Shown: positions 6,831-23,300 of the stretch, one piece after another
Position numbering within the stretch: the first letter of the stretch is position 1
How the letters are laid out: every line of letters starts with the position of its first letter
NCBI RefSeq assembly: GCF_013812825.1
Contig: NZ_JACCSU010000050.1
Span: 1 to 52,952, forward strand
Source of the DNA: Sphingomonas sp.
GTDB taxonomy: Bacteria; Pseudomonadota; Alphaproteobacteria; Sphingomonadales; Sphingomonadaceae
Direction: 5' to 3'
Length of the DNA: 52,952 nt
Notes under the pieces: model-generated
Told to the model about the DNA's origin: nothing
What the model saw: only the letters and a program-made list of their open reading frames with translations
Databases searched by the model: none
Translations under genes and position numbers: made by a program

Positions 6831-6906
6831 TCCCGCTCCGCTCCCGCTTGGTCCTGGGCTCGGCTTACGGGCAAGCTCCTACTTCTTGGTTAACCACGCG
6901 GGCTGC

Positions 6907-8103
6907 TCAGTAGAGAAGATACGGTGCTCGCTGCTCTTCCCAAGCGCGCTCATCCGGCGTGGTCAGGGTGTCGAGATCGCCCGGCGCGGCTTCCAGGTCG
7001 TCGACCCATCCGCGAAGCAGCGGCGAGCCGTTGATGACGTCGATGGCGAGCTTGCCGAACTCATATTCGTAAGGGAAATCGCGCCACAGCTCATACTCCG
7101 GATAGAGCCGGCGGATCGCCTTGAACGCCAGCGCCTGCAGTCGCCACGGCTTGAATGCGGCGTGATCGTAGAAGCGCCCCTCGGCGTGGATGTGGACGCC
7201 GCTGCACAGCTTGCCAACATGCTTGTGGAAGGTCGGCTCGAAGCTGATCTCGCGAAGCGCGCAGCCGTCGAGCCATTGCGGCGCCAGGCGCTGCATTTCC
7301 GCGATCACCAGCCGTGCGTCGATGTCGGGCGCGCCGAACAGTTCGAGCGGCCGCGTCGTCCCCCTGCCCTCGCTTAGCGTCGCGCCCTCAAGCATCACCG
7401 ACCCCGCATAGCATCGCGCCATATTGAGGTTGGCGGCGTTGGGGCTAGGGTTGATCCACAGACGGTCCACGGGCCAGCCGAAGCCGGGGCCGTCGGGCTG
7501 CCACCCTTGCATCGCGATCACCCGGTAATCGACATCAAGCTTGAAGTGATCGACGAACCATTTGCCGAGTTCGCCGAGCGTCAGCCCGTGGCGCATTGGG
7601 ATCGGCCCGGCGCCCACGAAGCTCTCCCAGCCCGGGCGCAGCGTCAGCCCTTCGACCGGCCGGCCGGCGGGATTGGGCCGGTCGAGCACCCATACGGACT
7701 TGCCATGTTCCGCTGCCGCTTCGAGCACGTAAAGCAGCGTGGTGATGAAGGTGTAGATACGGCAGCCGAGGTCCTGCATGTCGATCAGGATGGTGTCGAA
7801 GGTGCCCAGCGACTGGCCGGTCGGGCGGCGCACCTCGCCATAAAGACTGAACACCGGGATGCCGTGGACCGGGTCGGTGAAGTCCTCCGATTCGACCATA
7901 TTGTCCTGCTTGTCGCCGCGAAGCCCGTGCTGCGGCCCGAACGCCGCCGACAGCCTCAACCCGGCGCCGGCCAGCGCGTCGAGGCTGTGGGTGAGATCGC
8001 TCGTCACCGACGCCGGATGGGCGAGCAGAGCGACGCGCTTGCCCTCCAGCGGTTTGCGCAGTTCCGGCTCGGCGAGCAGCCGGTCGATTCCGAACAAAGT
8101 CAT
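6907..8103 (-). CDS. namZ: DUF1343 family, NamZ-type exo-muramidase
   Basis: A 398-residue protein of the DUF1343 family, whose founding member NamZ removes terminal N-acetylmuramic acid from peptidoglycan fragments. Family signatures are AFGPQHGLRGD (about 61-71), LIDMQDLGCRIYTF (about 113-126) and VLDRPNPAGRP (about 143-153). No signal peptide is seen with the chosen ATG 8103; the frame is open further upstream, but there it only mirrors the neighbouring gene. It starts 10 bp after the DOMON-like gene ends, so the two are probably co-transcribed. MurNAc released by it could feed the AmgK/MurU pathway encoded at 33.7-35.5 kb; this link is inference. Confidence 0.85.
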   Translation of the reverse strand: MTLFGIDRLLAEPELRKPLEGKRVALLAHPASVTSDLTHSLDALAGAGLRLSAAFGPQHGLRGDKQDNMVESEDFTDPVHGIPVFSLYGEVRRPTGQSLGTFDTILIDMQDLGCRIYTFITTLLYVLEAAAEHGKSVWVLDRPNPAGRPVEGLTLRPGWESFVGAGPIPMRHGLTLGELGKWFVDHFKLDVDYRVIAMQGWQPDGPGFGWPVDRLWINPSPNAANLNMARCYAGSVMLEGATLSEGRGTTRPLELFGAPDIDARLVIAEMQRLAPQWLDGCALREISFEPTFHKHVGKLCSGVHIHAEGRFYDHAAFKPWRLQALAFKAIRRLYPEYELWRDFPYEYEFGKLAIDVINGSPLLRGWVDDLEAAPGDLDTLTTPDERAWEEQRAPYLLY

Positions 8104-8113
8104 GGCCAAGTGC

Positions 8114-8650
8114 TTACGGAAGCTGCGCGGCGAAGCAATCGGGATGGTGGAAATCGGGCGTCTCGGCCGGGTGGGCCAGCGCCCAGAACGACTTGGTGCC
8201 GTCCTTCTCTTCAAGCACCGCCGACAGGCCGAGCTCCCAGGGCTGGCCGGCATCGACGGCGATGGTCGCGCCCAGCGTCCACCAGGTGAAATTGTCCTCC
8301 ATTCGGATGTAGGGCGGCGAGCCGACATCGGCCCGCGCCATGTCTTCCCGATAGCTCGAGAAATCATAGGCTCCCCAGTTGCCCGACGGCGCGAAGTTCC
8401 ACTCGCGGTAGGATTCCGCTCCGGCCGGCCGGAGGAACGCTTCAAAGCACGTCGTCTGCCACAGCTCGTCCGCCCGCCAGGGCTCCCTCAGCTTGGGAAT
8501 GACGAAGCGGTTGGCCGGCGCGCCGACCCCGAACCAGATGTTGGTGGTCGCGACTGGACCGAGGGAGGCAATATGGTCGACCGTCGCCCAGACCCTGAAG
8601 GACGGGCCTCCTGGCGGCGCCGACGGGTGGGGCTCAAGCGTGAACTGCAT
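8114..8650 (-). CDS. DOMON-like domain protein
   Basis: A 178-residue soluble, beta-rich protein resembling the DOMON-like proteins found beside cell-wall genes in sphingomonads; DOMON folds bind heme or sugars. Aromatic and acidic runs such as DELWQTTCFEAFLRP and EWNFAPSGNW (mid-protein) are typical. I chose ATG 8650, since 18 upstream codons are open but contain a Cys/Arg-rich run that does not fit the fold. It is divergent from tyrS with 46 bp between starts and lies upstream of the NamZ gene, suggesting a role in handling muropeptide sugar. Function is inferred. Confidence 0.75.
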   Translation of the reverse strand: MQFTLEPHPSAPPGGPSFRVWATVDHIASLGPVATTNIWFGVGAPANRFVIPKLREPWRADELWQTTCFEAFLRPAGAESYREWNFAPSGNWGAYDFSSYREDMARADVGSPPYIRMEDNFTWWTLGATIAVDAGQPWELGLSAVLEEKDGTKSFWALAHPAETPDFHHPDCFAAQLP

Positions 8651-8696
8651 CGCATCGCAGTAGCAGCGTGGAAAGCATGACGCTAAGCGGCGTCTC

Positions 8697-9914
8697 ATGA
8701 CCACCTATCGTTCCTCGCTGCTGAGGCTGCTCGACGAGCGCGGCTACATCCACCAGGTGACCGACGCCGCGGCGCTGGATGCGCTGGCCGAGAAAGAGAC
8801 CGTCACCGCCTACATCGGATTCGACGCGACCGCTCCGAGCCTGCATGTCGGCAGCCTGGTTCAGATCATGCTGCTTCGGCGGCTGCAGCAGGCTGGCCAC
8901 CGGCCGGTGGTTCTGATGGGCGGCGGAACCAGCAAGATCGGCGACCCGAGCTTCAAGGCCGAGGAGCGAAAGCTGCTCGACGACGCGATGATCACCGCCA
9001 ACATCGCTTCGATCCGGCGCGTGTTCGATCGCTTCCTGACGTTCGGCGACGGCCCGGGCGATGCGATCCTGCTCGACAACGCCGAATGGCTGGACGAGCT
9101 TCAGTACATTCCGTTCCTGCGCGACATCGGTCGGCATTTCTCGGTCAACCGAATGCTGACGTTCGACAGCGTCCAGCTGCGGCTGGAGCGCGAGCAGTCG
9201 CTCAGCTTCCTCGAATTCAACTACATGATCACCCAGGCCTATGATTTCCTCGAGCTCGAACGGCGCCTCGGTTGTCGCTTGCAGATGGGCGGGTCGGACC
9301 AGTGGGGCAACATCGTCAACGGCGTTGAGCTGTGCCGGCGAGCGGATGGCGTGGAAGTCTTCGGCCTGACGACTCCGCTGATCACCACCGCCGACGGCGC
9401 CAAGATGGGCAAGACCGAGCAAGGGGCCGTGTGGCTCAACGAAGATCTGCTGAGCGCGTACGATTACTGGCAGTTCTGGCGGAACACCGATGATGCCGAT
9501 GTCGGCAAGTTCCTGCGCCGGTTCACCGACCTGCCGCTTGCCGACATCGCCATGCTGGAGAATCTGCAGGGCGCCGAGCTCAATACGGCGAAAATCGCTT
9601 TGGCCACCGCCGCGACCGCGATGCTTCACGGCGACGAGGCCGCACGCACCGCCCAGGAAACCGCCAAGGCGACCTTCGAAGGCGGCGCCGGCGAGGATCT
9701 GCCGACCTTGAGCGTCGGCGATGGAGTCAACATCGCTCACGCTCTGACCCAGCTCGGCTTCACTCCGTCGAACAAGGAAGCCAAGCGCAAGATCGCCGAA
9801 GGCGCGGTGCGGTTGAACGACGAGGTCGTCAGCGACCCGGGCCTGGTCGTCGCTGCAACCGAGCCGATGAAGCTCAGCCTCGGGCGCAAGAAGCACGCGC
9901 TGCTTGTGAAGTAA
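8697..9914 (+). CDS. tyrS: Tyrosyl-tRNA synthetase
   Basis: A 405-residue class I synthetase that charges tRNA-Tyr. The HIGH-type motif is HVGS at residues 50-53, the KMSKS-type loop is KMGKT at 236-240, and GGSDQWGN (about 200) is the tyrosine-binding signature. A C-terminal S4 RNA-binding domain occupies about 345-405 ([17 protein letters not shown]). Length is usual for the bacterial TyrRS. The gene is divergent from the DOMON-like gene and convergent with recG, separated from it by a long palindrome. Confidence 0.96.
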
Positions 9915-9980
9915 CCCTCACCCCAACCCTCTCCCGCGCGCGGGAGAGGGAGGAGGAGCGCAGCGACGGAGGGTGAGGGT
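9914..9980. repeat. REP-like nested palindrome between tyrS and recG
   Basis: The inner part, CCCTCTCCCGCG followed by its exact reverse complement (9927-9950), is a perfect 24-bp palindrome. Outer arms ACCCTCACCC (9914-9923) and GGGTGAGGGT (9971-9980) also pair. Elements of this CCCTCACCC/CTCTCCC kind are common intergenic repeats in alphaproteobacteria. Sitting between two convergent genes, it may end transcription from both sides. Confidence 0.85.
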
Positions 9981-9985
9981 CCTTC

Positions 9986-12040
9986 CTAACCGGAGCGGAT
10001 CAGCCCGACCGCCTGGTCGCGCTCGAACAGATAGAGGCAAATGCGCGCCGCCTGACCGCGGGTCCCGGCAAGCCCGCCGTCGCGATCGAGCAGCAGCTGC
10101 GCGTCGCTTTGCGCGATCGGCGCCAGCTCGGCGACCTCCTCGGCCGAGGCGACCCGGAAGCCCGCTTCGCCGGACTGTTTCGTGCCGAGGATTTCCCCGG
10201 GACCGCGCAGCCGCAAATCCTCCTCGGCGATCCGGAAACCGTCGTTGGTCTCGCGCATCAGAGCAAGCCTGGCGCGGGCGGTCTCGCTGAGGTTTTGCCC
10301 GCGCACCAGCAGGCAGGTGCTGACCCCTGCCCCGCGCCCGACCCGGCCGCGCAACTGGTGAAGCTGGGCGAGGCCGAAGCGCTCGGCGCCCTCGACCACC
10401 ATCAAGGTCGCGTTGGGGACGTCGACTCCAACCTCGACCACCGTCGTCGCGACCAGCACCGCCAGCTCGCCGCTAGCAAAGGCCGCCATCACCGAATCCT
10501 TGTCCGGCCCTTTCATTCGGCCGTGCACCAGGCCGATGCGCTCGCCGAAGCGCAGCCGGAGCATCTCGGCGCGCTGCTCGGCGGCGGCGCTGTCGATCTT
10601 GTCGCTCTCCTCGACCAGCGGGCACACCCAATAGGCCTGGCCGCCGCCCGCCAGGTGCCGGCCCAGGCCGTCGATCACCTCGGCCAGTCGCTCGTCGCTG
10701 ATCACCCGGGTCTCGACCGGCGTTCGGCCCGGAGGCATTTCATCGATTCGGCTGACGTCCATCTCGCCATACTGAGTCAGCGTCAGGGTGCGCGGGATCG
10801 GCGTCGCGGTCATCACCAGCAGGTGCGGCGGACGCTCGGCTTTCGCGGAGAGCAGCAACCGCTGCGACACGCCGAAGCGATGCTGCTCGTCGATCACCGC
10901 CAGGCCGAGGTTCTTGTAGCCCACCTTCTCCTGGAAGATCGCGTGGGTGCCGACGAGGATGTCGATCGAGCCATCGCCCAGGCCCATGTAGACCGAATCG
11001 CGCGCGCGCCCTTTTTCGCGGCCGGTCAGGATCGCGACCCGAACTCCGATGGAATCGAGCTGGGCGAGCAGCGTCGCGTGGTGCTGGCGAGCGAGGATTT
11101 CGGTCGGCGCGAGCAGCGCCGCCTGAGCGCCCGCCTCGACCGCCGACAGCATCGCCATCAAGGCGACCAGGGTCTTGCCCGAGCCGACGTCGCCCTGGAG
11201 CAGGCGCAGCATCGGCACCGGCTGCGCCATGTCGCCGCGGATCTCCTCGATCACCCGCCGCTGCGCTCCGGTCAGAGTGTAGGGCAGCGCATGCTTGCCC
11301 GTCAGCCGGCCGTCGCCGACGAGCGGCACTCCGCGCTTGCGCCGCGCCGACTGGCGCAGGAGCATCAGCGCCAGCTGGTTGGCGAAAACCTCGTCGTAGG
11401 CGAGCCGGCGGCGGCTTTGGCTCGACTGCGGCTCGGCATGGGCTTCGGCAAGCGCCGGTCGCCATGCCCGCCAGCCTTCGCGCGCGGCCAGGCTCGGCTC
11501 GATCCACTCGGGCAGCTCGGGAGCGCGCTCCAGGGCCGCCGCGGCGAGCTCGCGCATTCGGCGGTTGGTCACGCCCTCGGTCAGGCCGTAGACCGGCTCG
11601 CGCAGCGGCAGGTCGGCATCCTTGCCCGGCGCGGCGACCTCGGGGTGGATGATCTGCAGCTCTTGCCCGTAGGCTTCGAGCTTGCCCGAGACCAGGCGCT
11701 TGCCGCCCAGCGGCAGGCTCTTCTTCGCCCAGCCGGGATTGTTGAAATAGACCAGCGTCAGAGTGTTGCCGTCGGCGTCGGACGCGAACACCCGGAACGG
11801 CGCCCGGCCCTGCGCGGCGCGGGTTTCGAACGGAGTCACCTCGACGATGACGATCCGCCCGACCAGCTCGTGGCCGATGGCGCGAGCCCGCACCCGCTCG
11901 ATGGCTCCGGTCGGCAGATGGTAGAGCAGGTCGATCACCCGCGTCAGGCCGAGCCGTTTCAGCGCCTTGGAGAGGCCCGGGCCGACGCCTTTCACAACCT
12001 CGGCCTCGGCGAACAACGGGTTGAGGATCTCCGGGCGCAT
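9986..12040 (-). CDS. recG: ATP-dependent DNA helicase RecG
   Basis: A 684-residue superfamily 2 helicase that regresses stalled replication forks and branch-migrates Holliday junctions. An N-terminal wedge/OB region (about 60-160) precedes the helicase domains: Walker A GDVGSGKT (about 285-292), DEQH box in VIDEQHRFGV (about 390), TATPIPRT, and the QLRGRVGRG motif VI. I chose ATG 12040, which gives the usual RecG length; the frame remains open further upstream without family similarity. The gene lies downstream of the sigma factor and DUF6768-like genes on the same strand with a 56-bp gap that holds a hairpin. Confidence 0.95.
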   Translation of the reverse strand: MRPEILNPLFAEAEVVKGVGPGLSKALKRLGLTRVIDLLYHLPTGAIERVRARAIGHELVGRIVIVEVTPFETRAAQGRAPFRVFASDADGNTLTLVYFNNPGWAKKSLPLGGKRLVSGKLEAYGQELQIIHPEVAAPGKDADLPLREPVYGLTEGVTNRRMRELAAAALERAPELPEWIEPSLAAREGWRAWRPALAEAHAEPQSSQSRRRLAYDEVFANQLALMLLRQSARRKRGVPLVGDGRLTGKHALPYTLTGAQRRVIEEIRGDMAQPVPMLRLLQGDVGSGKTLVALMAMLSAVEAGAQAALLAPTEILARQHHATLLAQLDSIGVRVAILTGREKGRARDSVYMGLGDGSIDILVGTHAIFQEKVGYKNLGLAVIDEQHRFGVSQRLLLSAKAERPPHLLVMTATPIPRTLTLTQYGEMDVSRIDEMPPGRTPVETRVISDERLAEVIDGLGRHLAGGGQAYWVCPLVEESDKIDSAAAEQRAEMLRLRFGERIGLVHGRMKGPDKDSVMAAFASGELAVLVATTVVEVGVDVPNATLMVVEGAERFGLAQLHQLRGRVGRGAGVSTCLLVRGQNLSETARARLALMRETNDGFRIAEEDLRLRGPGEILGTKQSGEAGFRVASAEEVAELAPIAQSDAQLLLDRDGGLAGTRGQAARICLYLFERDQAVGLIRSG

Positions 12041-12055
12041 CGACAATCTTGGTAA

Positions 12056-12085
12056 GGGGAGGATCGCCGCCCAACAATCCTCCCC
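12056..12085. promoter_or_regulatory. Hairpin in the recG leader
   Basis: GGGGAGGAT (12056-12064) and ATCCTCCCC (12077-12085) form a perfect 9-bp stem with a 12-nt loop, between the DUF6768-like stop and the recG start. There is no T-run on either side, so it is more likely a leader structure or a weak terminator than a classical one. Confidence 0.5.
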
Positions 12086-12096
12086 GATCGCCTGCG

Positions 12097-12459
12097 CTAG
12101 CGCGCGGTCCGCGCGAGCTGGAGCTCGATCCGCTTGAGCTCGCGCATCAACCGATTGGCGTGGAGCGCCGGCGCCACTGCCAGCTTGATCATCAACGACA
12201 TCAACAGCAGAACCGCGGCCGGCAGTCCCCATCGCAGCTGAGTAACGGGGTCGCCGGCTTCGAAAAATTTCCACGCCGCCACGACACCGACGATGAAAAC
12301 AACGCTCTGCACGGCCATCATCAAGACTGCGACCCAGACTAGCCGCCGGCCAAACATTCCCAGTGTGCGCTCGATCACGCCTTCCTGTTCCATGCTGCGC
12401 AGCAAGTCACGCTCCTCGGCGTCTAGTGCCAGGTCAATTTTCCGGTCGATGTCCTGCAT
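12097..12459 (-). CDS. DUF6768-like membrane protein, probable sigma-factor partner
   Basis: A 120-residue protein with an acidic N-terminus (DIDRKIDLALDAEERDLL) and two membrane segments (about 40-64 and 76-96), then a basic helical tail. It resembles the DUF6768 family by memory. ATG 12459 overlaps the sigma gene's stop by one base (TGATG), with GGAGGAGATGAG upstream as ribosome site. The tight coupling to an ECF sigma gene suggests that its N-terminal segment could bind the sigma factor, as a membrane anti-sigma factor; this is inference, as no ZAS zinc motif is present. Confidence 0.75.
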   Translation of the reverse strand: MQDIDRKIDLALDAEERDLLRSMEQEGVIERTLGMFGRRLVWVAVLMMAVQSVVFIVGVVAAWKFFEAGDPVTQLRWGLPAAVLLLMSLMIKLAVAPALHANRLMRELKRIELQLARTAR

Positions 12460-13004
12460 CACTCATCTCCTCCAAGCGCGTCGCGCAACTTGCGCCGCGC
12501 ATGCATCAGGCGGGTCTTCACCGTGCCCGCCGGAACGTCGAGAGCGACCGCCACCTCCGCGATGCTCATGTCTTCGAAATGGAACAGAGCGATCGCCGCC
12601 CGCTGGTCCTTCGGAAGCGCCCGCACCGCCGCGCGCAGACGCTCGTCATCGCTGGCAGTTTCCGGCGACGACTGATCGCCCGGAGCGATTGTGGACTCGG
12701 CGGCGAGCTGTCGCTCGCGGACGGCGGCGCCGATCTGCCTGGCGCAGCGCCGCGAGACGATCCGGAATGCCCAGGCGGGAAAGGCGCGGTCGTCGCGAAG
12801 CCGCGACAGACCGTTGACGATCTCGATCCACCCCTCCTGGACCGCGTCGCGCGCCGCCTCGACATCGCCGCCAAGCAGGCGCCAGGCGTGGCCGAGCAGC
12901 TTCTTCTGCCAGCGCCGCGCAAACAGCTCGAACGCCTTGCGGTCGCCTGCATGGATCGAGGCAAGCAGATATTCGTCCAGTACTCGGGACGCATTCACCG
13001 GCAC
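12459..13004 (-). CDS. ECF-type RNA polymerase sigma factor
   Basis: A 181-residue sigma-70 family factor with only regions 2 and 4. Region 2 covers about 10-95 (DAVQEGWIEI and RAFPAWAFRIVSRRCARQ), region 4 covers about 120-175, with the helix-turn-helix DMSIAEVAVALDVPAGTVKTR. The start is GTG 13004, behind GAGGGGTGAGG; an ATG two bases earlier is in another frame and closes at once. The DUF6768-like gene follows with a one-base overlap. The signal and target promoters are unknown. The pair sits between recG and sdhE-mfd. Confidence 0.88.
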   Translation of the reverse strand: MPVNASRVLDEYLLASIHAGDRKAFELFARRWQKKLLGHAWRLLGGDVEAARDAVQEGWIEIVNGLSRLRDDRAFPAWAFRIVSRRCARQIGAAVRERQLAAESTIAPGDQSSPETASDDERLRAAVRALPKDQRAAIALFHFEDMSIAEVAVALDVPAGTVKTRLMHARRKLRDALGGDE

Positions 13005-13143
13005 ATCCTCACCCCTCCCGTTTTACGAACATAGGTGACTCGCTGCGCTGTTTCGGTTCAATCCGCCGACGAAAAAAGCGGCGCCGCTGGCGATCTGCCG
13101 TCGGATTGGATACGGCCATCGCCTGTCCTACATCCCTCCAGCA

Positions 13144-13410
13144 ATGTCTCCCGGCGATGAACTGAAGGCGCTGAAGTGGCGAGCCCACCACCGCGGGACG
13201 CGCGAGGCGGACCTGCTGATCGGCGGGTTTTTCGACGCCCACTGCGCGAGCTGGAGCGGGGCCGAGCGCGCGATGTTCGACGAGATGCTCGACGAGCAGG
13301 ATGTCGACATCATGGCCTGGGCGATCGGAACCGCCGAGCCGCCGCCGCGGTTCGAAGGTCCGATGATCGAAGCGCTGAAGCGGCTCGACTACATCCGGGT
13401 CAAGCGATGA
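13144..13410 (+). CDS. sdhE: Succinate dehydrogenase assembly factor SdhE
   Basis: An 88-residue member of the Sdh5/SdhE (DUF339) family, which helps covalent attachment of FAD to the flavoprotein subunit of succinate dehydrogenase. The functional RGxxE motif is RGTRE at residues 17-21. Size and helical content match. There is no clear Shine-Dalgarno before ATG 13144. The stop overlaps the mfd start by 4 bp (ATGA), so the two are co-translated, an arrangement I recall from other alphaproteobacteria. Confidence 0.92.
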   Translation: MSPGDELKALKWRAHHRGTREADLLIGGFFDAHCASWSGAERAMFDEMLDEQDVDIMAWAIGTAEPPPRFEGPMIEALKRLDYIRVKR

Positions 13411-16400
13411 GCGAACCGCTCAAGCGCGTTCTCGATGCGGCCGAGCCGCTGACCCTGGCCGGCGTCCCAAGCGGTTTCCTGCCGCTGCTCGCAGCCGATC
13501 TTGCGCGCGCCGCGCACGGCAAGGGCGTCCGCGCGGTCGTCATCGCGGCCGACGAAGCGGCCATGCGGGCACTCGCCGAGACGGTGCCGATCTTCGCTCC
13601 CGAGGTCGAAGTCCTGACCCTGCCCTCGTGGGATTGCCTGCCCTACGACCGCGCTTCGCCCGCCTTGCGAGTGATGGCCGAGCGCCTGGCGACCCTCAAC
13701 GCGCTGCAGGCAAGCCAAAAGCGGCCGCAATTGCTGGTCGCGACCGCCAGTGCGGCCACGCAGCGGCTGCTGACCCCGTTCCGGGTCCGCCAGCTGACGC
13801 GCCGGATCGCGGTCGGGGAGCGGATCGACCGCGGGGCGCTGATCGAGCAGTTGAACGGACTGGGCTACCAGCGCGCCGATTCGGTCGCCGAAGCCGGCGA
13901 ATATGCCGTCCGCGGGTCGCTGATCGACCTGTTCCCGGCGGGAGAGGAGTCGGCGCTTCGGCTCGATTTCTTCGGCGACGAGGTCGAGAGCATCCGCCGC
14001 TTCGATCCCGCCGATCAGCGCTCCATCGACAAGGCCAAGGGCTTCACGCTTCTGCCGGCATCCGAAGCGCTGCTCGACGAAGTCAGCATCCGCCGGTTCC
14101 GCTCGCGCTACCGCGAGACGTTCGGGGCCACCGCGACCGGCGACCCGCTCTACCAGGCTTTGTCCGAGGGCCGGCGGATGAGCGGCATGGAGCATTGGCT
14201 GCCGCTGCTCGAAGAAAGTCTGTCGACGCTGTTCGACCATCTCGGCGAGCACGACCTGATCGTCCGCGACAGCGGGGCGGAAGCGGCGCTTGCCGCCCGG
14301 CGCGACGCGATTGCCGATTATTATTCCAACCGGACTCGGGCGATGGCCGCGGAGCCCGGCAGCTACCGGCCGCTCGAACCGGGCTCGCTCTATGTGCCCA
14401 GGGAGGAATGGGGCTCGACGGTCGCCGGGCGTCCGATCCACCTCGCCTCGCCATTTCCGGAGCCCGAGAGCGCGCTCACGATTGCTTTCGAAGTCGAACC
14501 GGCCCGCGACTTCGCTCCCGAGCGCGCTCAGCAGGCCAATGTCTACGAGGCGGTCGCTGCCCATGTGCGGGCGCTGAAAAAGGACGGCCGCAAGGTTGTG
14601 CTGGCCAGCTACACCCGGGGTGCGCGCGAGCGGCTCCACGGACTGCTCGAGGACCATGGCCTCAAATCGCTGAAGCTCGCGGACAGTTGGCAGGACGCGC
14701 TCGGCGCGAAGGGTTCGGCGGCGCTGATGGTGTTGCCGCTCGACCACGGCTTCACCGCCACCGAGGTCGCGGTGCTGACCGAACAGGACATGCTCGGCGA
14801 CCGCCTCGTTCGGCGACGCCGCAAGCGCAAAGCCGCCGCCGCCTTCCTCGAGGAGCTGGCGACTCTGTCCCCGGGCGATCTCGTCGTCCACGCGGACCAC
14901 GGCGTCGGACGCTACGAAGGCCTCACCTCGATCAAGGTCGGCAACAGCCCACACGATTGCGTCGCCCTCGAATATGCCGGCGGCAACAAGCTCTATGTCC
15001 CCGTCGAGAATATCGAGCTCCTGACTCGCTACGGAAGCGAATCCGAGGGCGTCAGCCTCGATCGGCTGGGCGGCGAGGCGTGGCAGCGGCGCAAGTCGCG
15101 GATGAAGCAGCGCATCCGCGAAATCGCCGGCGAGCTGATCAAGACCGCGGCGTTGCGCGCGACTCGTCCGGGCACGGTCGCCCAACCCGACTCGGCGTTC
15201 CCGCAATTCGTCGACCGCTTCCCCTACGAAGAGACCGACGATCAGGACCGGGCGATCGAGGAAGTGCTCGCCGACCTCGAGTCGGGCAAGCCGATGGACC
15301 GGCTGGTGTGCGGGGACGTCGGTTTCGGCAAGACCGAGGTCGCTCTTAGGGCCGCGTTCGTGGTTGCCATGTCGGGCCTGCAGGTGGCGCTGATCTGCCC
15401 GACCACGCTGTTGGCGCGCCAGCATTATTCGCAGTTCGCCGAGCGGCTGCAGGGCTTCCCGATCCAGCTCGGCCGGCTGTCGCGGCTGGTGCCGGCGGCC
15501 GAAATGAAGAAGACCAGGGAGGGCCTCGCCAGCGGCCAGGTCGATATCGTCATCGGCACCCACGCGCTGCTTGCCAAAGGGCTGAAGTTCAAGCGCCTCG
15601 GGCTGGTGATCGTCGACGAGGAGCAGCATTTCGGAGTGGCCCACAAGGAGCGGCTGAAGGCGCTCAAGGCCGACGTCCACGTGCTGACCCTGACCGCGAC
15701 TCCGATCCCGCGGACGCTGCAGATGGCAATGTCAGGACTGCGCGACCTCAGCGTCATCCAGACCCCGCCCGTCGACCGACTGGCGATCCGCACCTACGTC
15801 AGCCCCTGGGACCCGGTCGTGGTCCGCGAGGCGCTGTTGCGCGAGCATTATCGCGGCGGCCAGAGCTTCTTCGTCGTGCCGCGGATCGCCGACCTGCCGC
15901 AGATGGAGGAATGGGTCGCCGCCGAGGTCCCCGAGGTCAAGGCGGTGACCGCCCATGGGCAGATGAGCGCGACCGCGGTCGAGGAGCGGATGAGCGCCTT
16001 TTACGACCGCAGATATGACGTGCTCCTGTCGACCACCATCGTCGAGAGCGGGCTCGACATCCCGACCGCCAACACTCTGATCGTCCACCGCGCCGACCGC
16101 TTCGGCCTTGCCCAGCTCTACCAGCTTCGCGGCCGCGTCGGGCGGGCCAAGACCCGCGCCTACGCCTATCTGACGACACCCGGCGACCGGTCGATCACCG
16201 AGGCGGCCGACAAGAGGCTGCAGGTGCTGGCCAATCTCGACAGCCTCGGCGCCGGCTTCCAGCTGGCGAGCCACGATCTCGACTTCCGGGGCGCCGGCAA
16301 TCTGCTGGGCGACGAGCAGTCGGGGCACATCAAGGAAGTCGGCTTCGAGCTTTACCAGTCGATGCTCGAGGAGGCGATCCTCGAGCAAAAGGCCGGCGGA

Positions 16401-16901
16401 GTGCCGCAGCGCGAGGAATTCTCGCCGCAGATCAGCATCGATGCTCCGATCCTGATCCCCGAGACCTATGCCCCCGACCTCGACTTGCGCATGGGGCTCT
16501 ACCGGCGCCTGGGCGAGCTCGAAGACCGCCGCGCGGTCGATGAGTTCGCGGCCGAGCTGATCGACCGCTTCGGGGACCTGCCCGAGGAAACCCAGAACCT
16601 GCTCAAGATCGTCGAGACCAAGATCAACTGCCGCCAGGCGTGCATCGCCAAGCTCGACATCGGCGCCCGCGGCGCGGTCGTCACCTTCGCCGAAGGCGGC
16701 TTTCCCGACCTCGGCGGACTGCTCGCCTACATCGAGCGGCTCAAGGGTTCGGCCAAGCTTCGACCCGACAGCAAGCTGTCCGTCGCTCGCGACTGGCCGA
16801 CCGCCGAGGCTCGGCTGGCCGGAGCGCTGCAGCTGTCGCGGGGGCTGGCCCGCGTGGCCGCGGCGGGGGAGAAAAAGGAAAAGGAGCTGGAGCCGGCCTA
16901 G
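13407..16901 (+). CDS. mfd: Transcription-repair coupling factor Mfd
   Basis: A 1164-residue translocase that removes stalled RNA polymerase at lesions and recruits UvrA. In order: UvrB-like N-terminal region (about 1-330), RNA-polymerase-interacting domain around 480-540 (GDLVVHADHGVGRYEG), helicase motor with Walker A GDVGFGKT (about 635-642) and DEEQHFGV, then TATPIPRT and QLRGRVGR, and a C-terminal TRCF domain. ATG 13407 is chosen because of the overlap with sdhE. The stop TAG shares the palindrome CTAG (16898-16901) with the stop of the convergent EAL gene. Confidence 0.96.
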   Translation: MSEPLKRVLDAAEPLTLAGVPSGFLPLLAADLARAAHGKGVRAVVIAADEAAMRALAETVPIFAPEVEVLTLPSWDCLPYDRASPALRVMAERLATLNALQASQKRPQLLVATASAATQRLLTPFRVRQLTRRIAVGERIDRGALIEQLNGLGYQRADSVAEAGEYAVRGSLIDLFPAGEESALRLDFFGDEVESIRRFDPADQRSIDKAKGFTLLPASEALLDEVSIRRFRSRYRETFGATATGDPLYQALSEGRRMSGMEHWLPLLEESLSTLFDHLGEHDLIVRDSGAEAALAARRDAIADYYSNRTRAMAAEPGSYRPLEPGSLYVPREEWGSTVAGRPIHLASPFPEPESALTIAFEVEPARDFAPERAQQANVYEAVAAHVRALKKDGRKVVLASYTRGARERLHGLLEDHGLKSLKLADSWQDALGAKGSAALMVLPLDHGFTATEVAVLTEQDMLGDRLVRRRRKRKAAAAFLEELATLSPGDLVVHADHGVGRYEGLTSIKVGNSPHDCVALEYAGGNKLYVPVENIELLTRYGSESEGVSLDRLGGEAWQRRKSRMKQRIREIAGELIKTAALRATRPGTVAQPDSAFPQFVDRFPYEETDDQDRAIEEVLADLESGKPMDRLVCGDVGFGKTEVALRAAFVVAMSGLQVALICPTTLLARQHYSQFAERLQGFPIQLGRLSRLVPAAEMKKTREGLASGQVDIVIGTHALLAKGLKFKRLGLVIVDEEQHFGVAHKERLKALKADVHVLTLTATPIPRTLQMAMSGLRDLSVIQTPPVDRLAIRTYVSPWDPVVVREALLREHYRGGQSFFVVPRIADLPQMEEWVAAEVPEVKAVTAHGQMSATAVEERMSAFYDRRYDVLLSTTIVESGLDIPTANTLIVHRADRFGLAQLYQLRGRVGRAKTRAYAYLTTPGDRSITEAADKRLQVLANLDSLGAGFQLASHDLDFRGAGNLLGDEQSGHIKEVGFELYQSMLEEAILEQKAGGVPQREEFSPQISIDAPILIPETYAPDLDLRMGLYRRLGELEDRRAVDEFAAELIDRFGDLPEETQNLLKIVETKINCRQACIAKLDIGARGAVVTFAEGGFPDLGGLLAYIERLKGSAKLRPDSKLSVARDWPTAEARLAGALQLSRGLARVAAAGEKKEKELEPA

Positions 16902-17740
16902 GCCGCTTGCGCCATCGACGCGGCGACGAAGCGGGCGAGCTCGATCTCGTCGAGTGGTCCGGCGCCTAGGAAACCCTGGTAGAGGTCGCAGCCCCAGTCG
17001 GCGAGCAGAGCCAGCTGGGCGGTGCTCTCGACGCCCTCGACCACGACCTGGAGGTCCAGTTCCCTGGCCAGCGCGATCATCGCCTTGACGACGATCCGGT
17101 CGCGGGTGCCGCCGACGATGTCGGCGACCAGCCCGCGGTCGATCTTCAAGATGTCGAGCGGCAGGCTGGTGAGATAGGCGAGGCTGGCATAGCCGGTGCC
17201 GAAATCGTCGACCGCGACTCGAATCCCGGCGGCGCGCAGCCGGCCGAGCCGCTCGGCGATCGAATCGCTGTCCGAAAGCAGGGCGCTCTCGGTGATTTCG
17301 ACCGTGATCCGCCTGGGGTCGATTCCGGCGATGTCGATCTCATCGAGCAGCCACTGGTCGTAACCGGCCCGGGCGAGATCCTGGGGCAGCAGATTGATCG
17401 ACAGGTCGAGCGACTTCAACGGCCCTTCCCAGATCGCCGCGAGGCGCAACGCCTTGCGCTGGACCAGCCGCGACAGCCGCTCGGCAAGGCCGCTCGCCGC
17501 GGCGCGCTGGAACAGCTCCTCGGGCGTGTCCGCGCCGTCCCAGCGGGCCAGCGCTTCAACGCCGATGATATCGCCGTTGGCCGGGTCGATCTGCGGCTGG
17601 AACAGCAGCGCAACATGCTGGTGCGCGATGACCGCTTCGAGGACATGGTCGCGCTTCGGGATCACGGGCGCCGGACCTTGCCGATCCGACGCCCGCTGCC
17701 CCCCGCTGAACCCGCTGAACCGGCTGAACCATTTGAACAT
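16898..17740 (-). CDS. EAL-domain cyclic-di-GMP phosphodiesterase
   Basis: A 280-residue protein that is nearly all EAL domain (about 32-275), with no GGDEF or membrane segment. Catalytic positions look intact: E62 in VEALARW, the Asn in INLLP, EITES, the DD pair in VDDFGTGY, Lys in LKIDRG, Glu in VVEGVES and Gln in LYQGF. It should therefore hydrolyse c-di-GMP. The N-terminus (FSRFSGFSGG) is encoded by three 9-bp tandem units TTCAGC(C/G)GG, so this end may be recently grown. Nothing in the neighbourhood tells which process it serves. Confidence 0.92.
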   Translation of the reverse strand: MFKWFSRFSGFSGGQRASDRQGPAPVIPKRDHVLEAVIAHQHVALLFQPQIDPANGDIIGVEALARWDGADTPEELFQRAAASGLAERLSRLVQRKALRLAAIWEGPLKSLDLSINLLPQDLARAGYDQWLLDEIDIAGIDPRRITVEITESALLSDSDSIAERLGRLRAAGIRVAVDDFGTGYASLAYLTSLPLDILKIDRGLVADIVGGTRDRIVVKAMIALARELDLQVVVEGVESTAQLALLADWGCDLYQGFLGAGPLDEIELARFVAASMAQAA

Positions 17741-17857
17741 GAGCTGCCTGCTAACGCCCCGCCGGCCGGACCGGAAGCGGCCGGGAGCGGCCGCCCCACA
17801 ACGGGACAGTGACGCCTTGCGCCAAAATCCCTATGCTCCGGTCATGAGGAGCACGCG

Positions 17858-18679
17858 TTGACGGCAGATGCGCCCAACATGGCCGGAGAAGGCGTCCGGC
17901 AGGACCTGACGAGCTCGCGTATCGGCCTATTGTCGTCGCCCACCCCGGTCGCCAAGGCGGCCGAGGACATGCTCCGCCGCCGCTATCAGTGGAGCGCAGT
18001 CGACGACGCCGACATCCTGGTCGCCCTGGGCGGCGACGGCTTCATGCTCCAGACGCTGCACCAGATGCTCGAAGGCGGCCGCTCGCGCCCGGTGTTCGGG
18101 ATGAACCGCGGAACCGTCGGCTTCCTGATGAACGAATGGCGGCTCGACCAGCTCGCCGAGCGCATCGCGACCGCCAAGGCGATCCGCGTCGCCCCATTGG
18201 AGATGGTCGCGACGACGGTCAGCGGCGAGACCTTCGTTCACGCCGCGATCAACGAAGTGTCGCTGCTTCGCGAAACCCGCCAGACGGCGAAGATCGAGGT
18301 GCTGGTCAACGGTCGGGTGGCGATGCCGGAGCTGGCCTGCGACGGGGTGCTGGTGGCGACTCCGGCGGGCTCGACGGCCTACAACCTCTCCGCGCGCGGG
18401 CCGATCCTGCCCTTGCAGGCGAAAATGCTGGCGCTGACCCCGATCAGCCCGTTCCGGCCGCGGCGCTGGTCGGGCGCCATCCTGCCCGACGATACCGCAA
18501 TGTGCTTCCGGGTGCTGGAGCCGGAGAACCGGCCGGTTTCGGCGGTCGCCGACCAGTTCGAAGTGCGCGACGTCGCCAAGGTCGACGTGACGCTCGACCG
18601 CGAGCGGTCGCTGACCCTGCTGTTCGACCCCGAGCATGCGCTCGACGACCGCATCGCCATGGAGCAGTTCACGACGTGA
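17858..18679 (+). CDS. nadK: NAD kinase
   Basis: A 273-residue kinase that phosphorylates NAD to NADP. The GGDG motif is at residues 58-61 (VALGGDGFML), followed by NRGTVGFLMNE and TPAGSTAYNLSARGPI, all typical. I placed the start at TTG 17858 because GAGGAGC at 17846-17852 lies 5 nt upstream. An alternative is ATG 17879 (codon 8), which is without a ribosome site. A five-codon open frame, ATG 17844 to TGA 17861, overlaps the TTG and could affect initiation. Confidence 0.92.
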   Translation: MTADAPNMAGEGVRQDLTSSRIGLLSSPTPVAKAAEDMLRRRYQWSAVDDADILVALGGDGFMLQTLHQMLEGGRSRPVFGMNRGTVGFLMNEWRLDQLAERIATAKAIRVAPLEMVATTVSGETFVHAAINEVSLLRETRQTAKIEVLVNGRVAMPELACDGVLVATPAGSTAYNLSARGPILPLQAKMLALTPISPFRPRRWSGAILPDDTAMCFRVLEPENRPVSAVADQFEVRDVAKVDVTLDRERSLTLLFDPEHALDDRIAMEQFTT

Positions 18680-18772
18680 TTTCTTGGGTCGCGATCCGAA
18701 GCCAGCGGATCGCTTATGCTTGTCTTTGAGCCAACCTCCGCTATTTAGCCGCCTCGCCTTGGCGAGAGGTGT

Positions 18773-18847
18773 TCCCCGGTAGCTCAGCGGTAGAGCGTTC
18801 GACTGTTAATCGAATGGTCGCCTGTTCGAATCAGGCCCGGGGAGCCA
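18773..18847 (+). tRNA. tRNA-Asn (GTT)
   Basis: A complete cloverleaf with encoded CCA. The acceptor stem is TCCCCGG (18773-18779) with CCGGGGA (18837-18843), the D-stem is GCTC/GAGC, the anticodon stem TTCGA/TCGAA holds the loop CTGTTAA with anticodon GTT at 18805-18807, and the T-stem is GCCTG/CAGGC around TTCGAAT. The discriminator is G, then CCA at 18845-18847. Its last 29 bases and the next 6 are exactly repeated at 20134-20168. Confidence 0.97.
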
Positions 18848-18853
18848 TCTTCG
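18819..18853 (+). repeat. 35-bp direct repeat, tRNA copy (attL-like)
   Basis: The segment from the T-arm of tRNA-Asn to 6 bp past its CCA is identical, base for base, to 20134-20168. Exact repeats of a tRNA 3' end in direct orientation are the classical footprint of site-specific integration. Confidence 0.8.
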
Positions 18854-18923
18854 CCGCCTGTCCGATCATTGCGACGATGTGCGCTCTTCCCCGACCTCGA
18901 CTTCGGGGAGAGAGGGACATAGG

Positions 18924-19919
18924 TCAGCGCGAATAATTGTCCACGGCCTGGAACAGTGCAGTGATCGCGCGGCGCTCCTCGGCTTCGATTTCCGGCCGCC
19001 AGACGTCGAAGATCAGGATGATGCGGTTGCTCGAGCCATCATTCCACGCCTCATGCTGGACCGTATCGTCGAACACCAGCAGTTCGCCTTCACGCCACTG
19101 ACGTGTCGCGCCAGCGACGCGGAAGCCGCAACCGGGCGGAACGATCAGTGGCAGATGACAGATCAGCCGGGCGTTCATCACCCCATGGTGCGGCGGGATC
19201 CTGGCGCCCGCCGCGAGGCGGGAGAAGAGGATCGAGGGAGCGCGCACGCTGATGTGCGGGAGGTCGAGCTGCTCGACCGCATTGAGAGTGCGCGAAAAAT
19301 CTTCGGCCAAAGCTGCCACCCGGCCACCCTTTTCCCAGATGTACAGCGTGCTCCAGTCGGGATTGTCGAGGAGCCCATGGACATCCGTCCTCGGTCGTGA
19401 CGGATCACTCACAATGTACGGCGAAAAATGATCTCCTGCGCGAGCGAGGTAAGCTAGAAGCTCCTCACGAATCGCATCCGCCGCCGCCTCGATCTCACCG
19501 GCCCACGCAAGCTCCGACCGTTCGTAGTAGCGGCGTTGCGGGAGGCCCGGGAAATAGTACGAAGTCGGCTGCTGCAACTCGAGCGTCGTCTGTTTGCGGC
19601 CGAGCATCAGGTCGAGCGATTCCTGGAAGCGCGGGGGTCGCTTTTCCGGCGGAAAACCGGCCTCCGAAAGAGATGATTCCAGGTGCCGTTCGAAGTAGGC
19701 CCTGCCCCGGCCGATCCCGGCCTGTGCCCGTTCGATCGCCGATCGCATCGATATCGGCAGCGGTTGGGCGGCAGCGGCCGCCCCCAGCGCGGCCTTGAAA
19801 AATGCATGCGCGGCGCGATCGTCACCCACAGCCTCCCGAAGTTCGCCCTTGCGAACCAGCGACTCGATGTTGCGAGGCTCGCGCTCGAGCAAGGCGTCGA
19901 TTTCCAACTCCTCGGTCAT
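18924..19919 (-). CDS. Aspartyl/asparaginyl beta-hydroxylase family dioxygenase
   Basis: A 331-residue Fe(II)/2-oxoglutarate dioxygenase of the AspH/LpxO type. The N-terminal about 90 residues form a TPR-like helical region (LVRKGELREAVGDDRAAHAFFKAAL); the double-stranded beta-helix follows. Iron ligands are probably His244 or His245 in IPPHHG and His289 in TVQHEAWN, with Arg in SNRIILIFDVWRPE binding 2-oxoglutarate. There is no signal peptide, so it acts in the cytoplasm; the substrate is unknown (protein side chain, peptide or lipid A). It is the only gene between two copies of the tRNA-Asn 3' end. A 7-bp-stem hairpin (19935-19951) lies just upstream of its start. Confidence 0.88.
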   Translation of the reverse strand: MTEELEIDALLEREPRNIESLVRKGELREAVGDDRAAHAFFKAALGAAAAAQPLPISMRSAIERAQAGIGRGRAYFERHLESSLSEAGFPPEKRPPRFQESLDLMLGRKQTTLELQQPTSYYFPGLPQRRYYERSELAWAGEIEAAADAIREELLAYLARAGDHFSPYIVSDPSRPRTDVHGLLDNPDWSTLYIWEKGGRVAALAEDFSRTLNAVEQLDLPHISVRAPSILFSRLAAGARIPPHHGVMNARLICHLPLIVPPGCGFRVAGATRQWREGELLVFDDTVQHEAWNDGSSNRIILIFDVWRPEIEAEERRAITALFQAVDNYSR

Positions 19920-19934
19920 CGGCTGTCGCCGCGA

Positions 19935-19951
19935 GGGATCGAACCGATCCC
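19935..19951. promoter_or_regulatory. Palindrome upstream of the beta-hydroxylase gene
   Basis: GGGATCG and CGATCCC are perfect 7-bp arms around AAC, 16 bp before the ATG of the minus-strand gene. It could be an operator or a leader hairpin covering the ribosome site. Confidence 0.4.
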
Positions 19952-20133
19952 GACCAAGTCGTGCTCATCACGGCGTTCCGTTTCGCACAGCGCGACTTTC
20001 GCCCGTTCGCCACCCTGCATCTTGGTCTCCCACCGTCAGCGTCCCGGAAGCGGCTGGAGGAATCCTCTAGCTTCCTTCGCGCTTCACGGCGAGCATTTGA
20101 GGCGTAGGAGAGTCTACTTGAAGCAGCCCGTGC

Positions 20134-20168
20134 CGCCTGTTCGAATCAGGCCCGGGGAGCCATCTTCG
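20134..20168 (+). repeat. 35-bp direct repeat, orphan tRNA 3' end (attR-like)
   Basis: An exact copy of 18819-18853 without the 5' half of the tRNA, so it cannot make a tRNA. It closes a 1.28-kb interval whose only gene is the beta-hydroxylase. Confidence 0.8.
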
Positions 20169-20321
20169 TCCGCCCTCGCATGAATCACGAAGCGGCCAGA
20201 CCAGGGGCCCGACCGCTTCGGCGAGGTGCGTTCGTGTCTCGCTAAAGACCACCCCGCAATCGCATCAACGACTGATTGGTGGCGCCGCTCCAGCCCGTCC
20301 CGTGGCGGGACAGCTTGCGCC

Positions 20322-23300
20322 CTAGCCTTCGAGCGCCGCCATCAGGGTCGCGTTGCCGCCGGCCGCGGTGGTGTCGATGCAGGTCACCCGCTCGGTCGCG
20401 AAGCGGGCGACATAATGCGGGCCGCCGGCCTTGGGCCCGGTACCGGACAGCCCCTCGCCCCCGAACGGCTGGCTTTCGACCACCGCGCCGATCTGGTTGC
20501 GGTTGACGTAGAAGTTGCCGACCCGAGCGCGCTGCTCGACGAAGTCCCGGACCGTGTCGATGCGGCTCTGCAGGCCAAGCGTCAGCCCGTATCCGGTCGC
20601 GTTGATGGCGTCGACGACGTGGCCGAGGTCCTCGGCAGCAAACCGGACGACGTGCAGGATCGGGCCAAAGTTTTCGCGATTCAAGTCACTTAGAGACTTG
20701 ATCTCATACATGGCGGGAGCAACGAAGCTGCCGTGCGCGGTTTCGTTGGGGAGCTCCAGCCGTCCGATGCGCCGGGCATTGGCCCCCAGCCAGTCAAGGT
20801 GCTCCTCGAGGGCTTTCTTCGCTTCCTCGTCGATCACCGGGCCGACGTCGGTCGAAAGGTCGCGCGGGTCGCCGACCCTGAGCGCTTGCATGGCGCCGGC
20901 GATCATCTCGATCATCTCGTCGGCGATGTCGTCCTGGAGGAACAGCACGCGCAGTGCCGAGCAGCGCTGGCCGGCGCTCTGGAAAGCCGACGACATGACG
21001 TCGCGCGCGACTTGTTCGGGCAGCGCCGAGCTGTCGACGATCATCGCGTTCTGGCCGCCGGTCTCGGCGATCAACGGGATGATCGGCCCCTCGCGCTCGG
21101 CCAGCGTGCGGTTGATCAGCCGGGCGGTCTCGGTCGATCCGGTGAACGCGACCCCGGCAAGCAAGGGATGCGACGTCAACGCCGCACCGACTCGGCCGTC
21201 GCCAGGAGCGAGCTGGACCACCTCGCGCGGCACACCCGCCTCGTGCATCAACTCGACGGCGAACGCTCCGATCAGCGGCGTTTGCTCGGCCGGCTTGGCG
21301 ATCGCCGCATTGCCGGCGGCGAGCGCCGCCCCGACCGGGCCGATGAAGATGGCCAGCGGAAAATTCCACGGGGATATGCACGCGAACACGCCGCGGCCGT
21401 GGAGGCGCAGCTCGTTCTGCTCTCCGGTCGGCCCGGGGAGCGGCAGCGGCCGGCTGAACTTGGCGCGCGCCTCGGACGCGTAATAGCGCAGGAAATCGAC
21501 CGCCTCGCGAACCTCGAGCACCGCATCCGGAAGCGTCTTGCCGCCCTCGCGGATGCACAGCGAGAACAGCTCTTCGCGATGCTCCTCGAACAGGTCGGCG
21601 GCGCGGTCGAGGAGCCTGGCGCGGGCTTGCCCGCCCAGCGCGTCCCATTCGGCCTGCGCGGCCGCGCCGGCGCGGACCATCTTGTCGACGTCTTGCGCGC
21701 TCGCCTCGACCACCGTTCCGACCATGATCCGGCGATCGTGCGGCGAGGTCACCGCCCTCCCCTTGCCGGCTTTCGAACCGCTCGGAGCTGCGTCCCAGCT
21801 GCGCGATTCCAGGGCGTTCAGCCGCTCCAGAAGCGGCTCGCGGACCAGCGGGTCGGAGAGGTCGACTCCGGCACTGTTGCGGCGAGACTCGCCGAAGATC
21901 AGCCGCGGCAGCGGGATCGCGGGGTTGCGTTTGCACTCGAGCGCGGCGAGCTCGGCGACGGGGTCGCGAACCAGTTCGTCGAGCGACACATGCTCGTCGG
22001 CGATCCGATTGACGAACGACGAATTGGCGCCGTTCTCGAGCAGGCGTCGAACCAGGTAGGCGAGCAGGTCCTTGTGAGTGCCGACGGGCGCGTAGATCCG
22101 GACCGGGGTCGGCGGGTCGCCGATTGCCGCCTCGAGCTTCGCCAGCTCCTCATAGAGCGCCTCGCCCATGCCGTGCAGGCGCTGGAACTCGAACGGCGCC
22201 TTGCCCGCGGGAGCCGATCCCGCAAGGGCCTTGATCGCTCCGATGCTGTTGGCGTTGTGGGTGGCGAAGGCGGGATAGATGACGTCATCCGCGGCGAGCA
22301 GCTTTTTCGCGCAGGCGAGGAACGACACGTCGGTCGCGACCTTGCGCGTGAACACCGGATAGTCGGCAAGGCCCGCCACCTGCGCGGCCTTGATTTCGGT
22401 GTCCCAGTAGGCGCCTTTGACCAGGCGGACCATCAGCTTGCGGCCATGCGCGCGAGCGGTTTGCACGACCCAATCGCACAGCGGCGCGGCGCGCTTCTGA
22501 TAGGCTTGAATCGCCAGACCGAATCCCGACCATCCATTCCCAAACAACTCATCGTCGGCGATCAGCGCCTCGAACAGGTCGAGGGACAGCTCGAGCCGGT
22601 CGGCTTCCTCGGCGTCGATGGTGAAATGGACGTCGGCCGCGCTCGCCTGCATCGCAAGCGCGCGAAGCACCGGCAGAATCGCCGCCTTGGCCTCTTCGGA
22701 ATGCGTGAACTCGTAGCGCGGATGAAGCGCCGACAGCTTGACCGAAATCCCCGGCGAGCGCGCGATACCGTCTTTGGCCTCCTGGGCGATCCGTTCGAGC
22801 GCACCAGCATAGGCTGCCGCATAGCGCGCCGCGTCCTGGTGGGTGCGGGCGGCCTCGCCGAGCATGTCGAAGCTGTGGGTGAGCCCGGCTTCACGGTCGG
22901 GCGCGGCGCGGCGCAGGGCTTCTTCGATGGTTCGGCCGAACACGAACTGGCGACCCAGGATGCGCATCGCCTGGGTGACCGCGGTCCGGACCACCGGCTC
23001 GCCGAGGCGCCCGACCGTGCGTCCGAGCACCGCGCGCCAATTGTCGCCTCGGTCGTCCGCGCCTTCGAGCACCTTGCCGGTCAGCAGGAGCGAGAAGGTC
23101 GCGGCGTTGACGAACGCCGAGTTCGACTGGCCGAGCTTCTCTGCCCAATCGGGACCGGCGAGCTTGTCGGCAATCAGTTCATCGGCGGTATGCGCGTCGG
23201 GGATTCGAAGCAGCGCTTCCGCCAGGCACATCAGGGCGATGCCCTCCTCGCTGCCGAGCTCATAGGCGTGAAGGAATGCGTCGAGGCCGGAGGGCTTGTG

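Follow-up and report, generated by a model that had tools for sequence, protein, structure and literature searches.

The tRNA-Asn locus and its direct repeat

The window, by which we mean the whole stretch of 52,952 nucleotides analyzed here, contains an intact tRNA-Asn gene, a downstream copy of its 3' end, and, between the two, a gene for a dioxygenase of the Asp/Asn beta-hydroxylase type (Table 1). The two 35-nt repeat copies are identical and on the same strand, with a spacing of 1280 nt. An earlier note on this DNA had reported an exact, same-orientation 35-nt repeat at the tRNA-Asn 3' end, and its coordinates and orientation were confirmed. As in integrase islands, the tRNA 3' end is duplicated as a direct repeat and the tRNA is left whole. 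Searching the source genome (2.45 Mb in 100 contigs) with a 24-nt tail piece returned just two places at up to three mismatches and none with the reversed-pattern control, and a 15-nt core returned the same two places at up to one mismatch, with one match for its reversed control. The earlier note had named occurrence of the repeat at many non-tRNA places as a reason to doubt an insertion; genome-wide, there were just these two sites. Within the genus the tail pattern was matched in 67 of 71 genomes, and two exact tails on one contig were found solely in the genome of the window.

Table 1. Features of the locus and of the namZ/MCP junction, in window positions
Feature	Position	Strand	Description
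namZ/MCP junction	6831-6906		orthologue slot in relatives; no hydroxylase in the window
tRNA-Asn(GTT)	18773-18847	+	intact, insertion target; ARAGORN; Rfam RF00005, 71.3 bits
Repeat copy 1	18819-18853	+	29 nt of the tRNA 3' end plus TCTTCG
Left flank of the insert	18854-18923		70 nt; nothing convincing to match among the fetched loci
Hydroxylase gene	18924-19919	-	331 aa, open throughout; Asp/Asn beta-hydroxylase-type dioxygenase; PF05118, E 5.4e-42
Right flank of the insert	19920-20133		214 nt; no clear relative among 397 family genomes
Repeat copy 2	20134-20168	+	partial tRNA-Asn, 35 nt
Resident downstream sequence	20187-20258	+	directly after tRNA-Asn in relatives

The predicted hydroxylase scored 143.8 bits against PF05118 (cut-off, 22.6), covering profile positions 2 to 157 of 157, and phmmer matched it to aspartyl/asparaginyl beta-hydroxylase chains, with 5apa_A as the best match (E value of 1.7e-27). 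What we take to be the iron-binding His pair and the 2-oxoglutarate-binding Arg of AspH align with identical residues. No further Pfam domain was detected in the protein at an E value of 0.001, and the TPR-like N terminus that the earlier note had read into it was not borne out, as no TPR family in Pfam reached that threshold. Differences between the window gene and its counterpart in G084 numbered 45, 25, and 111 at the three codon positions over 237 codons, suggesting that the hydroxylase is under purifying selection and has been kept functional.

Little else was recognized in the interval. Five other open reading frames of 91 to 173 aa on its plus strand gave no Pfam or PHROGs family at an E value of 0.1, a short open reading frame ending at the hydroxylase start had nothing convincing to match in the fetched loci, and a promoter scan of positions 18700 to 20330 found no sigma-70-like site. 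The earlier note had described the interval as lacking an integrase, and none was recognizable either within it (Pfam and PHROGs) or on the contig (PF00589); with no integrase gene inside, the interval departs from an integrase island. Judging by titles and abstract openings, no publication on this locus was found.

The tRNA-Asn site in relatives

The order nadK, tRNA-Asn, putA was observed in most of the relatives read, G023 and G032 being cases where nadK does not adjoin tRNA-Asn. The resident downstream sequence of the window matched what comes after the tRNA in G007, G010, and G014 at 80 to 85% identity and the G035 sequence before putA at 78%, whereas the 79 nt after the first tRNA gave no such match to the post-tRNA sequence of relatives. 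Because that sequence resumes after the second repeat copy and has no match after the first, the DNA between the copies is an insertion at tRNA-Asn, in agreement with the earlier note.

The stretch from tRNA-Asn to putA was read in 50 of the 70 genus relatives, with G005, G011, and G087 among those left out and with no putA on the pieces read from G016 and G092. The longest exact match to the last 35 nt of the tRNA in the downstream sequence was 10 nt or less in 49 of these 50, compared with 29 nt in the window, the exception being G035 with a 15-nt exact match. Relatives that lack the gene and yet keep both copies, which the earlier note had proposed as counterevidence, did not turn up, a second long tail being present in 0 of the 50. 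The interval itself is missing from the tRNA-Asn site in relatives, another feature shared with integrase islands. The gap between tRNA-Asn and putA was 225 bp or less in 16 of the 48 relatives with a measurable gap and was longer, with other contents, in 32; differing open reading frames fill it in the 14 longer-gap relatives looked at. Across the 50 relatives the gap ranges in length from 23 bp to 9.5 kb, and most gaps contain no tRNA copy. G067 and G084 both have a Rieske/FAD reductase gene there, and an open reading frame in the G033 gap has a start similar to that of this gene. The tRNA-Asn site varies often, usually without a tRNA copy, and since most of the longer gaps contain no such copy, other routes must bring DNA there as well.

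In two relatives an integrase was associated with the same tRNA. In G087, contig C2 (L149) carries tRNA-Asn at 2616-2690 on the minus strand and, about 0.8 kb further on, an integrase gene at 656-1828, also minus, which is intact and encodes 390 aa with Arm-DNA-bind_3, Phage_int_M, and Phage_integrase domains. A partial tRNA copy (30 nt exact, 6464-6493) lies on contig C101 (L150) of the same genome, which carries putA. This copy consists of 24 nt of the tRNA and 6 nt beyond the CCA, and the window repeat likewise ends 6 nt beyond the CCA. We infer that C2 and C101 are probably the two ends of one island at tRNA-Asn. In G035, a PF00589 match (C42:33298-33735; E value of 1.9e-9) lies in a 226-aa open frame next to a 249-aa open piece without a Pfam match, and the integrase is apparently broken; a copy of the tRNA tail (15 nt exact, 19 of 20 overall) is near this match, within the same tRNA-putA gap. 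That gap (L116) is about 9.5 kb long and also holds a 796-aa open reading frame that is methylase-like by eye, with no Pfam match, and further open reading frames that by their look resemble an ABC transporter set. A PF00589 scan of 20 genomes, G087 not among them, gave a match at tRNA-Asn in G035 alone. The same tRNA is therefore targeted by an integrase in kin, intact in G087 and apparently broken in G035, which is a further trait of integrase islands.

When the G087 integrase was used as the query, 55 of the 71 genomes gave matches; among the matches listed, none was near tRNA-Asn except that of G087 itself and one in G012, and the best other match was in G014, at 59% identity. The G012 case (C184; L117) concerns a second, different tRNA-Asn at 9354-9428, with the integrase about 2.5 kb from its 5' side, and this tRNA is perhaps carried by an element. 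The genome of the window (G000) has eight PF00589 matches, none of them on the tRNA-Asn contig. Integrase genes are found close to tRNA-Tyr, tRNA-Ala, and tRNA-Ser on its contigs C19, C42, and C39 (L226 to L228), and the one on C39 has a stop inside the match. The nearest kin of the G087 integrase in this genome are 46 to 48% identical to it and are two of the three tRNA-adjoining integrases.

The repeat could also have been created in silico, by a short-read assembler joining pieces through the 35 nt. The genome is in 100 contigs, 35 nt is in our judgment short to be spanned unambiguously, and the two copies in G087 are on different contigs. Against this, such an error would have to affect both junctions and would still require the hydroxylase to be bordered by tRNA tails on both sides in the real genome, and most relatives read show the same flanking order, nadK-tRNA-putA. 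We regard an assembly artifact as highly improbable.

The hydroxylase gene and its slot in relatives

A homologue of the hydroxylase was found at an E value of 0.001 in 47 of the 71 genus genomes, and in a 31-sequence tree the window protein fell into a clade of six with those of G084, G067, G028, G076, and G018 (support, 99/93). All five of these nearest orthologues are beside namZ and/or a chemoreceptor (MCP) gene that adjoins namZ. The orthologue follows namZ by 2 nt in G067, 8 nt in G018, 25 nt in G076, and about 0.87 kb in G028, the MCP gene being located elsewhere in G067 and G028. In G084 the orthologue lies about 80 nt before the MCP gene, and the contig starts inside the hydroxylase, so that the namZ side is off the contig. 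Where the distance could be measured, in four genomes, the slot precedes tRNA-Asn by 10.8 to 12.5 kb, and the orthologues in the slot have the same orientation as the window gene. In the window itself, namZ and the MCP gene are adjacent with 76 nt between them, compared with 77 to 85 nt in seven relatives with an empty slot, and the clade's gene was found in the window genome solely behind tRNA-Asn. Two genes outside the clade in the tree also adjoin namZ, namely, a 40% identical relative in Erythrobacter longus and the gene of G015. The best reading of these data is that the hydroxylase is a displaced gene of the genus, the new fact being its fixed chromosomal slot in relatives.

The earlier note had suggested looking for the same gene beside other tRNA ends. 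This association was not found in 20 homologue loci (15 plus 5 from other places or genomes), where the nearest tRNA genes seen lay at distances of 3.4 kb (L156) and 5.6 kb (L130). The hydroxylase was also considered as phage or plasmid cargo: a scan of viral contigs, sensitive to close relatives only, gave no relative, and the 86 plasmid and 10 phage records that matched were all under 60% identity.

Both hydroxylase trees that were built placed the window with G084 (support, 96/93 and 97/94), and the groupings of G084 with G067 (AU test, p of 0.033) and of the window with G067 (p of 0.032) were weakly rejected. The putA tree rejected the window with G084 (p of 4.7e-5) as well as the window with G084 and G067 (p of 2e-4). 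The putA tree also conflicts with a four-gene backbone tree, G015 grouping with G018 in one and with G067 in the other, and putA may itself have recombined. The four-gene tree was made without G084, whose fetched contigs lack those genes. Because putA conflicts with the backbone and because the groups tested were chosen with the trees already in view, we draw no conclusion on a horizontal origin from these gene trees, which conflict within the genus.

The fixed slot bears on whether the unit behind tRNA-Asn is a minute passenger, its tRNA tails serving as working att sites for an integrase supplied by another element. Two identical, intact tails around one open gene that is seemingly under purifying selection, in a genome with integrases elsewhere, would suit such a passenger. 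On the other hand, its orthologues sit at a fixed slot, neither the viral scan nor the phage and plasmid records (at 60% identity or more) yielded a relative, and none of the eight PF00589 matches is on the tRNA-Asn contig. Moreover, no second occurrence was seen, two intact tails being on one contig in only 1 of the 71 genus genomes, and recurrence of the unit at other places or in other genomes, a hallmark of hitchers, was not observed. We consider a passenger of this kind quite unlikely. The earlier note had left the choice between the remnant of a larger island and a satellite moved in trans; the insertion and its tRNA target were borne out and the satellite was not supported, and since a unit of this kind was seen just once, a remnant is the likelier of the two.

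Origin of the interval and comparison with known elements

We think it probable that the locus is a scar of tyrosine-integrase-type insertion at tRNA-Asn and that the 1.28-kb interval is a remnant after loss of the integrase. An integrase event is favored by the shape of the repeat, by the insertion relative to other genomes, and by the arrangement in G087, and the integrases beside three other tRNA genes of the window genome also count for it. The missing integrase and the lack of matches for the flanks fit a remnant from which most of the inserted DNA was lost. By analogy with known elements, an integrase would have recombined a tRNA tail on incoming DNA with the chromosomal tail, so that one tail copy would keep the tRNA whole and the other would mark the far end of the insert. 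The integrase would have been lost later, leaving the interval as what is left of the inserted DNA, into which the hydroxylase may have entered either from the chromosome's own slot or from a relative. As no integrase is present, we classify the locus as a scar or remnant rather than an integrative element.

Some observations argue against an integrase scar. Neither the interval nor the contig yielded an integrase family, a further copy of the unit that would show movement was not seen, and the two ends in G087 are on different contigs. In addition, the tRNA is about 12 kb from the usual slot of the gene, a nearness for which we estimate a chance of roughly 1% with a random target (about 24 kb in 2.45 Mb). 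This nearness favors some local process and is a difficulty for a purely imported island.

For this reason we retained as an alternative a tandem duplication of the block of about 12 kb from the slot to the tRNA, after which most of the second block and the first hydroxylase would have disappeared, the partial tRNA being the stump of a second tRNA. Rearrangements by duplication and loss occur in mitochondrial genomes. One such event would account for the short distance, the unchanged minus orientation, the tRNA stump, and the lack of a hydroxylase in the slot. Flanks derived from the block would be expected to have stayed recognizable if they were neutral and as old as the stump, yet those of the moved gene do not clearly match the 12-kb block (window positions 5433 to 18772), while the stump is identical over 35 nt. 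In comparisons with this block, the score of the left flank was reached by 4 of 100 shuffles, which is borderline, and that of the right flank by 59 of 100. The left flank was likewise borderline against the G067 region (4 of 60 shuffles), and over the pieces of G067 and G084 the flank scores were reached by 4 to 58 of 60 shuffles. The origin of the flanks was also sought with blastn and local alignment in the window and in the fetched loci, where all matches were short and at chance level. In a search with the right flank that covered 397 genomes from the family and scored no more than two candidate places in each, the best nonself match was 25 nt long (E value of 2.1e-4 for one genome), and at E values up to 1 the matches in 375 of the 397 genomes, its own included, amounted to noise. 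The evidence from G087 and G035 for integrases at tRNA-Asn also speaks against duplication and loss, which we consider unlikely.

A trans-acting integrase might also have picked the resident gene from its place about 12 kb away and reinserted it behind tRNA-Asn as a single-gene unit, a course of events that seems to us improbable. If true, it would mean that integrases, besides importing islands, also move ordinary host genes over short distances.

Under the preferred reading, a remnant of an integrase-mediated insertion, an upper limit can be placed on the age of the event. If the second copy is neutral, a perfect match over all 35 nt would limit the divergence to below about 0.085 changes per site (simple Poisson estimate, 5% level). 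Compared with the 80% amino acid identity of the nearest of 17 congeners in a four-protein tree, the insertion would be recent relative to the divergence of the congeners.

It is well documented that integrated elements can have a partial tRNA copy at their far end (PMC9897764), and elements that depend on the integrase of another element are a known class (PMC11389934). The locus resembles the integrase islands at tRNA 3' ends in its partial tRNA direct repeat, its intact tRNA, the insertion relative to relatives, and the integrase at the same tRNA in G087; it differs from them in that the interval is 1.3 kb with one gene and no recognizable integrase. With integrase-less hitchers and satellites it shares att-like ends without an integrase, but there is no sign of movement and no second copy, and in relatives the gene is slotted. 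The predicted gene product resembles the PF05118 family in its nearly full catalytic domain and its matches to solved AspH chains and differs in having no further Pfam domain at an E value of 0.001. The presence of an att-like repeat on both sides of a gene is not sufficient proof of import from afar, and the gene that remains here is not clearly foreign, since relatives keep it in a fixed place nearby. In comparison with these known systems, the locus looks like an ordinary insertion scar, small and clean, with a mildly surprising displaced gene rather than a new kind of element, and it shows that tRNA-Asn serves as a target for insertion in this group.
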